The position numbers and the translations under genes were made by a program. From contig JAMLHB010000002.1 of NCBI GenBank assembly GCA_023957375.1, positions 744,001 to 808,000 on the forward strand: a stretch of 64,000 nt of DNA, read 5' to 3'. The stretch comes from Flavobacteriales bacterium (GTDB taxonomy: Bacteria; Bacteroidota; Bacteroidia; Flavobacteriales_F; PHOS-HE28). The notes beneath the pieces are model-generated. The model did no database searches and had not been told where the DNA came from. It worked only from the letters and a program-made list of their open reading frames with translations. Positions within the stretch are counted from its first letter, which is position 1; every line of letters begins with the position of its first letter. Positions 29,196-33,013 of this stretch are shown here, in pieces.

Positions 29196-29199
29196 CCCG

Positions 29200-29273
<74 letters not shown>

Positions 29274-29340: not shown

Positions 29341-32004
29341 TCAACGGCGGCTTTCTTTTCGGAATTGTGCCAAGATCCCATGCCATTCCGTCTGTGAGCG
29401 GATGCGGCGTTGCCCACTGCCCACCTGCCTGGGATGGCCGACACCCTTGCCGTTGCCCAGTACGCGGGCCTTCACATTGTCCGCCCATTGCAGTTCCAGG
29501 TGATCCATTACCTCGGCCCTGTGGCGTTTGTCCAGGATGGGAAACATGGCTTCCACGCGGCGGTCCATGTTGCGCTGCATCCAATCGGCACTGGAGAGGA
29601 ACACCAAGGGTTTGCCTGCATGGTGGAACACATAGGCCCGGGCATGTTCCAGAAAGCGGTCCACGATACTGATGGCCTGAATGGAATTGCCTTTGCCCGG
29701 CACCAGGCAGCAGATCCCGCGGACGATCAGGCGCACCTGTACGCCGGCACGATCGGCCTGGTACAACCGGCGGATCAGTGGCCGGTCCTCCAGGCTGTTC
29801 AGCTTTAGCAGGATGGAGGCCGTTCTACCCTGCAGGGCCTGCTCGATCTCACGGTCAATGGCATGCTCCAGAAAGCTCCGCAATTGATAGGGTGAGGTGA
29901 TCACCTGCCGGGTACGGCCGGGGGGCGAGTTGCGCATCAGGTCATGCATGATCCCGGCCACCTCGGCGGTGATCGCCTTGCGTGCGGTGCATAGGGCCAT
30001 GTCCGCATAGGTGCCCGCCGTATCCTCGTTGAAGTTGCCGGTACCCAGGCAGGCATAGCGCTTCACGCCACCGGCCTGCTTGCGTTCGATCAGCAACAGT
30101 TTGCAATGCACTTTATACCCCGCGATACCGTAGGATACCCGTGCCCCGGCCTTGGCGAGCACCCTGCCCCACCGCAGGTTGTTCCCCTCGTCGAAGCGGG
30201 CCAACGCTTCCAGCAGCACGTCCACCCGCTTGCCACGCCGCGCAGCCATGGCCAGGGCCTTGCATACGCGCGAGCGCTCCGCCACCCGGTACAAGGTGAT
30301 GGCGATGTGCTTGACGGCAGGATCTTCCGCAGCCCGTTCCACCAAGCGCACCACGGCTGAAAAATCATCGTAGGGAAAGTGCAGCAGGGCATCCCTGCGG
30401 TCCAACTGGCGGAAGGGGTCCCCCTTCGTGAGCAGCGGATGCCCAAGCGGGGCCATGGGCGGCTCCTTCAACTCGGGCCTGCCTGCCACCGGCAGGTTGG
30501 CCAGGTCGGCCAGGCGGTGGTAACGCCCCCCGGCAAGCAGGTCGGCTTCCTTCAACCCCAAGGCACACCGCACGCGCTCCACCAACGGGCGCGGCATCTT
30601 CCGGTCGAAGAGCAAGCGCGCCGGATTGCCTTTCCCGCGTTTGTGCAGGCTCCGCCGCACCTTCAGGGCCAGGTCGTCGGAGAATTCCTCGTCCAGGTTC
30701 AGTTCCGCATCGCGGGAAAGCTCCACGGCATGGCTGCTTTCCAGGTGCCACCCCTTGAAGCAGGTGGCGGCACCCGCACGGACCGCATCATCCAAATACA
30801 TCAGGTCCGTACGGCCCGGCGCAGCGGGCAGCACCAGGAACCGCCCCAGCTTCCGCGAAGGCACGTTCATCAGCACCAAGCGTTCCTTGGCGCGGTTGCG
30901 CCGTGAAAGCCGCATCAGCAGGTATAGCTGGCCATCCCGGATGAAGGGTGCATCCTCCCCGTGCAGGTCCACGGGTTGCAGCAGGGGTGCCACACGGGCA
31001 TGGAACAGCTCCAGCACGGCTTGGTGTTGGCGTTGGGAGAGCTGGCCGGGTTTAAGGAAGCGGATCCCCTGTTTGCGCAAGCCGGGCACCAGCATGTCGG
31101 TATACAAGGCCCCCACCTCGGCCAGCTGGCCCTGCGCTTCCTTGTTGATCTGCTTGATCAGCTTGTCCGCGGGCACTTCCAACGCCGACCGGTTCCACTT
31201 GCCCAGATGGCTCAGTGCGCGCAATTGGGCCACGCGCACCCGGTAAAACTCATCCATGTTTCCGCCGTGGATGGCCACGAACTTCAACCGGTCCAGGAGC
31301 GGCACCGAGGGATCCCGGGCCTCTTGCAGCACTCGTGCATTGAAGGCAAGCCAGCTGAGGTCGCGGTTGGCCACTTGTTCATCGCGGGGGAGCACCGGCC
31401 GGGCCGGGCCACCACCCAGCTCTTGGCGCAACAAGGCGATGTTCTTGGCCTTTTGCCGGCCAAAGCGGCGCCGGGCATAGGGGGTCAGGAAGCGATGGGC
31501 TTCCAGGTAGGCCAGGTCGTTCCTCAACCATTCGCCGGCGTCAATGGGGTGGCCCAGTAGTGCCTCGCGCTCCAAGCGCAGGCGTTCGCCCCTTTCCATG
31601 AAATCGGACTGGCCTGCCTTGGCCTGGTCCGCATCCCGCAATACGCGTTGCGCCAGGCTGCGCGGAACGGCATCCCGGTGCGTGGCCATGATCATGCTGC
31701 ACACCTTGCGGACAAGGCGGTCCTCCATGCCGCGTGCCGTCAACCATTTCGATGCCAGCCTTGCACTTTCCTCCTCATGGCCCTCCTGGCGGTATGCATA
31801 GCCCGTGTCGTGGAAAAGTGCCGCCATTTCCAGCAACAGCAGGTCCCCGCCCGCCACGCCCGATGCGCGACCGATCTCCACCGCCGTGCGGGCCACGTCC
31901 ATCGCGTGCTCCAAGTCGTGATAGGGCAAGCGTTGGCCGATGTGCTTCAGGAAAAAGCGGCGCACATGCAAGCGTGCTTTTTCCACCAAGCTGGGCGTTA
32001 GCAT
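29341..32004 (-). CDS. ppk1: HD-domain / polyphosphate kinase 1 fusion
   Basis: An 887-residue fusion. Residues about 1-190 are an HD-superfamily metal phosphohydrolase-like domain: HDLEHAMD at 29-36 and the HD pair FHDTGY at 64-69, with a later MIMATHRD. From about 212 (NRDLSWLAFNARVLQEA) the chain is a full polyphosphate kinase 1, with the autophosphorylated His in GYKVHCKLLLIER and the second catalytic His region YVFHHAGKPLVFLSSADWM. PPK1 reversibly moves the ATP gamma-phosphate to polyphosphate. ATG 32004 is used; the upstream ATG at 32103 overlaps the divergent gene. The HD part could hydrolyse a nucleotide signal or polyphosphate; that is inference. Confidence 0.9.
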   Translation of the reverse strand: MLTPSLVEKARLHVRRFFLKHIGQRLPYHDLEHAMDVARTAVEIGRASGVAGGDLLLLEMAALFHDTGYAYRQEGHEEESARLASKWLTARGMEDRLVRKVCSMIMATHRDAVPRSLAQRVLRDADQAKAGQSDFMERGERLRLEREALLGHPIDAGEWLRNDLAYLEAHRFLTPYARRRFGRQKAKNIALLRQELGGGPARPVLPRDEQVANRDLSWLAFNARVLQEARDPSVPLLDRLKFVAIHGGNMDEFYRVRVAQLRALSHLGKWNRSALEVPADKLIKQINKEAQGQLAEVGALYTDMLVPGLRKQGIRFLKPGQLSQRQHQAVLELFHARVAPLLQPVDLHGEDAPFIRDGQLYLLMRLSRRNRAKERLVLMNVPSRKLGRFLVLPAAPGRTDLMYLDDAVRAGAATCFKGWHLESSHAVELSRDAELNLDEEFSDDLALKVRRSLHKRGKGNPARLLFDRKMPRPLVERVRCALGLKEADLLAGGRYHRLADLANLPVAGRPELKEPPMAPLGHPLLTKGDPFRQLDRRDALLHFPYDDFSAVVRLVERAAEDPAVKHIAITLYRVAERSRVCKALAMAARRGKRVDVLLEALARFDEGNNLRWGRVLAKAGARVSYGIAGYKVHCKLLLIERKQAGGVKRYACLGTGNFNEDTAGTYADMALCTARKAITAEVAGIMHDLMRNSPPGRTRQVITSPYQLRSFLEHAIDREIEQALQGRTASILLKLNSLEDRPLIRRLYQADRAGVQVRLIVRGICCLVPGKGNSIQAISIVDRFLEHARAYVFHHAGKPLVFLSSADWMQRNMDRRVEAMFPILDKRHRAEVMDHLELQWADNVKARVLGNGKGVGHPRQVGSGQRRIRSQTEWHGILAQFRKESRR

Positions 32005-32083: not shown

Positions 32084-33013
32084 ATGGACAGCCGATCGAT
32101 CACCCCGCTGCTTTCCAGCCTGGATACGGATGCCTGGTTGTTCGCCTATGGGGGGGATTTTACGGAGGACCACTCCGCCCGTTTACTTGAGCTTGCCTCG
32201 CTCGCGGGCGGACAATTCGACGGGTTCAACGCCAAGCAAGCCGGTTATGTGCTGGTGGAAGCGTACCAAAACATCATCCGGCACCGGGCCAAGTTGCCGG
32301 TGTCCGGGAGCTGCGGCCCTGGAGAGGGCCTGTTCGTTTTTCGCATCGACCGGAACGGGCTGGGCGTGTACACCGGCAATGCGGTCACCGGGTCCGCCGC
32401 CTCCGAGCTGGACCAAGCCCTGGCATCACTCCGCAACAAGGATGCCTCGGAGCTGAAATTACTTTTCCTACGTGGCATCCAACAGCCCGGGTCACCCGGC
32501 CAGCGCGGGGCCGGGCTGGGTTTGATCGAGATGGTCCGCCGCAGTGGCGCGGACCCGAAGTGGTCTTTTGGGCCCATGCACGCAGGGCACCAGTGGTTCT
32601 CCCTGGTACTGGAACAGGAGGCCAGGCCCCGGCAGGATAGTTTACAGGCCCTGGTGGAAGAGCATCTGTGCCCTTGGATGCTGGGCAACGGGGTGGTCTG
32701 CCTGCAGGTTGCCCCGTGGTCGCCCGGCCTGGGGGAAACGCTGATGAGCATGGCCCGAACAGAAGTTCCGTTACGTATCGGAACCTCCCAAAGCGGGCCG
32801 GCAACCCGTGAACAAGGTCCGTCCGCCTTCATGTCGCAACTGGCCGTGGGCCACCGGATGGCATTCCTGCTTCATGGCAGGGACCGACACCAGCTCAGCA
32901 TCGGCGGACAGCCCGGCCCCCAAAGTGGGTTGCACGGGCACCATGCCCCCATGTCCGGGGCGGCGGCACGCCCTGCCGGCCAGCCCCTGGCCTGGTTTCA
33001 TGGGGCATGGTGA
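32084..33013 (+). CDS. SiaB-family protein kinase (DUF6272) with unusual C-terminal extension
   Basis: A 309-residue protein whose first about 175 residues match the SiaB type: GHKL-like AGYVLVEAYQNIIRHRAKLP (N-box) and QRGAGLGLIEMVRRSG (G-box). SiaB-type kinases phosphorylate anti-anti-sigma-like partners. The last about 120 residues are poorly conserved-looking, Gly/Pro/His-rich at the end (SGLHGHHAPMSGAAARPAGQ), and not recognised. ATG 32084 is chosen because TACCTTGG, a -7-like element, sits 12 bases upstream. Divergent from ppk1. Confidence 0.72.
   Translation: MDSRSITPLLSSLDTDAWLFAYGGDFTEDHSARLLELASLAGGQFDGFNAKQAGYVLVEAYQNIIRHRAKLPVSGSCGPGEGLFVFRIDRNGLGVYTGNAVTGSAASELDQALASLRNKDASELKLLFLRGIQQPGSPGQRGAGLGLIEMVRRSGADPKWSFGPMHAGHQWFSLVLEQEARPRQDSLQALVEEHLCPWMLGNGVVCLQVAPWSPGLGETLMSMARTEVPLRIGTSQSGPATREQGPSAFMSQLAVGHRMAFLLHGRDRHQLSIGGQPGPQSGLHGHHAPMSGAAARPAGQPLAWFHGAW

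Follow-up and report, generated by a model that had tools for sequence, protein, structure and literature searches.

The 64,000-nucleotide stretch analysed here, hereafter the window, encodes on its reverse strand (positions 29341..32004) an 887-residue protein in which an HD domain is joined to the N-terminus of a polyphosphate kinase 1 (PPK1). Judging from sequence comparisons, this fusion is real, conserved and fixed in the window's genus, and both of its parts are apparently active. Elsewhere in the phylum the same HD family is linked to ppk1 in the form of HD-PycTM proteins, a context central to the locus that a preliminary description of it had missed. A reading that we find plausible, if a little short of probable, is that the protein is bifunctional, PPK1 plus a metal-dependent HD hydrolase of HD-PycTM origin, and that the nucleotide handled by the HD is coupled to polyphosphate synthesis.

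The gene starts with an ATG at 32004 and its stop codon occupies 29341-29343; an alternative GTG start lies upstream of the ATG at 32103 and would lengthen the product to 920 residues. The HD domain region (residues 1-200; 31405..32004, minus strand) contains the Pfam HD core at residues 31-127 (PF01966, E 2.6e-12, 47.5 bits against a cut-off of 22). It is followed by a linker (residues 201-211; 31372..31404, minus strand), with pLDDT below 50 at residues 199-206. The PPK1 module (residues 211-852; 29449..31374, minus strand) holds all four PP_kinase domains, matched by Pfam at 212-853 (PF13089, PF02503, PF17941 and PF13090), and gives a full-length match to the NCBIfam PPK1 model TIGR03705 over residues 211-852, scoring 653.6 bits against a curated cut-off of 465.85. 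The preliminary description was therefore correct in its coordinates and in placing about 210 residues ahead of PPK1. In the AlphaFold models, pLDDT is 80.6 for the whole fusion protein and 84.1 for the HD alone. Pfam detected neither a PDEase_I domain (PF00233, at E up to 1) nor a PycTM domain (PF18967) in the window protein, the latter being absent from its genome also, and no Ppx-GppA domain was found in the protein.

The genus is represented by 45 genomes and is the only one of its family and order in the collection. Full-length fusions are present in 35 of these genomes, at 50-61% identity (100% for the window's own copy), and three more (G016, G027 and G029) have the fusion in pieces on short contigs. 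G027 at first sight carries a PPK1 without HD; we reject this since both of its pieces stop at contig ends, and PPK1 lacking the HD was seen in no genome of the genus. Seven genomes (G017, G033, G034, G020, G026, G030 and G036) have no PPK1-sized match, including three (G017, G033 and G034) that are 99-100% complete, and PF02503 was absent from all five of the seven that were tested. It seems that the HD-PPK1 gene was lost as one unit in these members. Nearly all of 31 aligned homologues begin with a Met at, or a few residues from, M1 of the window protein. Across this alignment identity is 57.5% in the HD core and 60-70% in the PPK domains, with a mean pairwise value of 21% in the linker. The linker holds no conserved start codon, and in 9 of 28 sequences the 15 codons leading up to the PPK motif include no start codon at all. 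A translation start after the HD, which the preliminary description had raised as an objection, is therefore not a conserved feature; the window sequence itself has GTG codons in its linker, so an internal start could occur in that one sequence. Purifying selection acts on the HD much as it does on PPK, with dN/dS values of 0.13-0.28 and 0.12-0.23, respectively, in six close pairs. The occurrence in 35 of 45 genomes, the shared start and the purifying selection lead us to reject an assembly artefact or a chance open reading frame.

The PPK1 part looks standard and is apparently active, and would make polyphosphate, and in reverse use it, via a phospho-histidine. It can be aligned over its whole length with E. 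coli PPK1 (1xdo), H633 falling in the catalytic His region on the GLKIHAKL motif, and R573, R603, H633 and H787 are invariant across an 18-sequence PPK1 alignment. We take H633 to be the catalytic phospho-histidine and the arginines to be substrate-binding, as in the E. coli enzyme. The window's genome contains two Ppx/GppA genes and no PPK2, so that HD-PPK1 is the only recognised polyphosphate kinase there.

As far as these searches show, HD-PPK1 is a new PPK1 architecture. Of 395 genomes sampled across the phylum, 355 have PPK1 and none of the listed matches is a further HD-PPK1, and a 395-genome class sample yielded no HD-PPK1 from other genera at E <= 1e-160. The preliminary description had suggested looking for the architecture elsewhere in Bacteroidota, and these two scans returned no second genus among the matches listed; we reject the fusion as a phylum-wide feature because the other genera are without it among those matches. 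Phyla beyond Bacteroidota were sampled by a pattern scan of an 85,000-species genome collection. This gave two fusion records, both from Bacteroidota MAGs (L032 and L033) that are probably the same genomes as two of the genus members, the other matches being without HD. We rejected two long frames of PPK1, from G222 and Magnetospirillum (L121 and L037), as their upstream part has no Pfam domain and looks like non-coding read-through. Viral relatives of the HD were not found by pattern scan, and searches by title or abstract of literature outside subscription found no account of an HD-PPK1 fusion. A tree built from 64 HD domains places the fused HDs in one clade (support 100/99) inside the HDs of HD-PycTM proteins, and the fused PPK1s form one clade too (FastTree); the fusion arose once. 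The nearest tree neighbours of the fused HD are HD-PycTM proteins of G015 and G344 whose genes lie away from ppk1, and the tree therefore gives no direct support for descent from a copy linked to ppk1.

Outside the fusion this family takes the form of HD-PycTM proteins (PF01966 plus PF18967, the latter at E ~1e-33), whose membrane domain matches the PycTM models of both Pfam and PADLOC. Among the 29 closest standalone PPK1 loci, 11 have a separate HD gene less than 1.5 kb away, and in 10 of the 11 the HD protein runs on into a PycTM-like C-terminal region, with PF18967 where scanned. One HD protein beside ppk1 (L113, in G252) has a different C-terminal half with no Pfam PycTM match, and in G196 HD and PycTM are two genes beside ppk1. 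Of the 84 genomes in which full HD-PycTM is listed, at least about 20 have its gene no more than 2 kb from ppk1, a lower bound counted by hand from lists (G397, G114, G110, G370, G268, G184, G389, G338, G131, G049, G182, G403, G124, G297, G258, G407, G423, G350, G315 and G313). The families with linkage are f2, f3, f17, f18, f36 and f48. Chance would account for about 0.2 genomes by our estimate, taking 2 kb on either side, at most two ppk1 copies and 4 Mb genomes.

The linked genes come in two arrangements. In the first, HD-PycTM is followed by SixA (PF00300) and PPK1 (L115 and L109), with variants in which the HD gene is divergent (L110) or an ion-channel gene is inserted (L139). In the second, seen in other families, HD-PycTM stands directly upstream of a second PPK1 type; L132 and L134 have overlapping stop and start codons, a gap of 2-5 bp separates the codons in L133, L136, L137 and L138, and the two genes are probably translationally coupled. 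Since the two arrangements lie on different PPK1 branches, the association is either old or recurrent. The order within the fusion, HD then PPK1, is the linked order minus PycTM. The fusion in one lineage and the neighbouring genes in related bacteria suggest that the HD hydrolase and PPK1 are probably functional partners. HD-PycTM also occurs in two genomes (G151 and G364) where the search for PPK1 gave nothing at E <= 1e-40; the family therefore does not always serve polyphosphate. In the literature outside subscription we found no report of this linkage, or of Pycsar joined with a polyphosphate kinase, and the pointer to the HD-PycTM/ppk1 association is, as far as searched, what is new here.

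The metal motifs that the preliminary description had seen in the HD are present, and their ligands are not mutated across homologues. Eleven positions are invariant in 34 fused, PycTM-linked and solo HDs (H29, H33, H65, D66, H76, E77, T108, D124, D126, E145 and W159), which keeps the HD ligand pattern H...HD...D (H33, H65-D66, D124/D126). For the extended dinuclear motif H...HD...H...H...D, as defined in PMC8177086, H76 is invariant and the candidate for the second His, H109, is not conserved. Invariant metal-site residues in such divergent members, together with selection as strong as on PPK, argue against the HD being a structural or regulatory binding domain that the fusion merely tethers. 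The family does join unrelated partners (PycTM and PPK1) and also stands alone, as a binding domain might, but we consider this the least probable of the readings.

In a fold search with the full-length protein every listed match was a PPK1 or PLD-type fold, so the HD was folded and searched alone. Profile searching against the PDB returned 2pq7 (2e-11), 3b57, 3dto, 3djb and YedJ, then YpgQ (0.006) and class I phosphodiesterases (PDEs, ~0.03). Structural alignment with VIA-align placed 3b57, YpgQ (5dqv/5dqw) and 2pq7 on top (Z 17-18 over 163-177 residues; for 5dqv/5dqw, Z 17.9 and 3.2-3.3 A over 175-177 residues), followed by PDE10A and other PDEs (Z 15-16 over ~193 residues), with the proviso that HD enzymes differing in chemistry have similar folds and that the YpgQ-like proteins have tied Z-scores. 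Foldseek on the HD alone was weaker, with a best E of ~8e-4. By sequence and modelled fold, then, the HD appears nearest to YpgQ/YedJ-type HDs, with class I cyclic-nucleotide PDEs next. YpgQ is a mononuclear Mn-dependent (d)NTP pyrophosphohydrolase with the ligands H29, H58, D59 and D124 (PMC8177086). For the window HD we favour, with modest confidence, a YpgQ-like hydrolysis of phosphoanhydrides.

Cross-talk between ppGpp and polyphosphate is known in E. coli, and counts in favour of an HD that specifically hydrolyses (p)ppGpp and so links polyphosphate with the stringent response. The reaction is carried out by SpoT-group HD hydrolases (PMC8177086). However, the HD is closest in sequence and fold to YpgQ-like proteins, the matches listed for it by sequence and fold include no SpoT/MESH1 structures, and we regard such specificity as quite doubtful. 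The HD might also degrade or trim polyphosphate, which would make the protein a synthase and polyphosphatase with two active sites on one chain. Foldseek does weakly find Ppx/GppA HD-like domains and YpgQ acts on phosphoanhydrides (PMC8177086), but the matches to Ppx/GppA cover only part of the fold (129-147 columns, E 0.05-0.1), two Ppx/GppA genes are already present in the genome and the HD family extends to genomes without detected PPK1, all of which makes this improbable. The bifunctional polypeptide put forward in the preliminary description stands as far as a complete PPK1 with an apparently catalytic HD is concerned, whereas its polymer-degrading activity finds only this weak structural match; the switch in stress response that it envisaged can at most be inferred.

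In the cyclic-pyrimidine Pycsar system PycTM acts as the membrane effector (PMC11224242), and the HD could be a cyclic mononucleotide phosphodiesterase that clears the nucleotide gating PycTM and, in HD-PPK1, links the cyclic-nucleotide level to polyphosphate. Its YHNxxHT signature resembles that of class I PDEs, with weak profile matches at E 0.03; a solo HD (L165) matches PDEase_I at E 0.0013 (19.0 bits against a cut-off of 24.8), and the PDE structures align at the Z 15-16 given above. Class III cyclase genes lie next to the cluster in G350 and G315, and every fused-genus genome tested has 5-10 class III cyclase matches. However, YpgQ-like structures outrank the PDEs in both sequence and fold, and in six genomes with HD(-PycTM) beside ppk1 (G182, G124, G403, G297, G313 and G196) nothing matched a class III cyclase at E <= 1e-6. 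Unless another enzyme makes it, a cyclic nucleotide of this type thus cannot be the general substrate. We consider the phosphodiesterase unlikely, and the operon genomes without class III cyclases favour a phosphoanhydride nucleotide.

Several neighbouring genes deserve mention. A divergent gene for a DUF6272 protein (PF19788; 31943..33013, plus strand, true start probably near 32086) has a counterpart next to the fusion in 30 of 32 loci compared within the genus; DUF6272 is SiaB-like, and its product is a possible partner-switching regulator. A tRNA-Ala gene (GGC; 29199..29273, minus strand) lies just downstream of the fusion gene. The window's own genome and its relatives also encode a solo HD paralogue (L002, G000:C3:214248-214811) with 35% identity, on a long separate branch. 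In one genus member a PycTM domain without HD (G008:C9:240389-240709) is found 12.5 kb from the HD-PPK1 gene. Class III cyclase domains directly adjoin ppk1 at L139 13-555 (G350:C17:138006-138521) and at G315:C1:1462115-1462633, in the two g144 genomes that carry HD-PycTM, SixA and PPK1.

Returning to phosphoanhydride hydrolysis, the window protein would be one enzyme in which PPK1 is joined via a flexible linker to a metal-dependent HD hydrolase, derived from a Bacteroidota family otherwise fused to PycTM and often encoded in one operon upstream of ppk1. The HD would cleave a nucleotide of the phosphoanhydride type, resembling (d)NTP, (p)ppGpp or Ap4A, and its presence on PPK1 would let that nucleotide control polyphosphate synthesis or be removed in step with it. 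Relatives would exert the same control at the membrane through HD-PycTM; in the fusion lineage the membrane part would have been lost, and the sensor/hydrolase would act directly on PPK1. It is from this combination that we infer a role for the HD in polyphosphate control. More tentatively, HD-PycTM, SixA and PPK1 may form an undescribed Bacteroidota module that couples a nucleotide-hydrolysing, Pycsar-like membrane protein to polyphosphate synthesis, HD-PPK1 being its collapsed, soluble single-protein form. If so, either PycTM also serves housekeeping phosphate or energy signalling besides phage defence, or polyphosphate is part of a membrane defence response. For most bacteria, little is understood of how PPK1 is turned on and off. 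A partner that is genetically fixed, as a fusion in one lineage and through probable translational coupling elsewhere, offers a direct lead to a PPK1 regulator. The tie between PycTM, known from phage defence, and polyphosphate metabolism could mislead the annotation of defence systems or reveal a new use of the domain.

Set beside known systems, the window protein shares the complete four-domain PPK1 of the E. coli (1xdo) and P. gingivalis (2o8r) enzymes and differs in about 205 additional N-terminal residues, the HD domain, a part matched by no other listed PPK1 outside the genus. Its HD resembles YpgQ/YedJ-type proteins (B. subtilis YpgQ 5dqv, Lin1889 3b57 and 2pq7) in fold over residues 1-200 and in the HxxxH, HD and DAD motifs, but is only ~20% identical to them, has the additional invariant H76-E77 and W159, and is joined to PPK1. 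Ppx/GppA exopolyphosphatases likewise have an HD-like fold tied to polyphosphate metabolism, whereas the window protein has no Ppx-GppA domain and matches them weakly and in part. The membrane domain of its relatives matches Pycsar effectors (PycTM), although the partner gene there is ppk1 and usually not a cyclase. The HD-PycTM proteins of Bacteroidota belong to the same HD family and keep the same HD-then-ppk1 order; in the window protein, PPK1 takes the place of PycTM.
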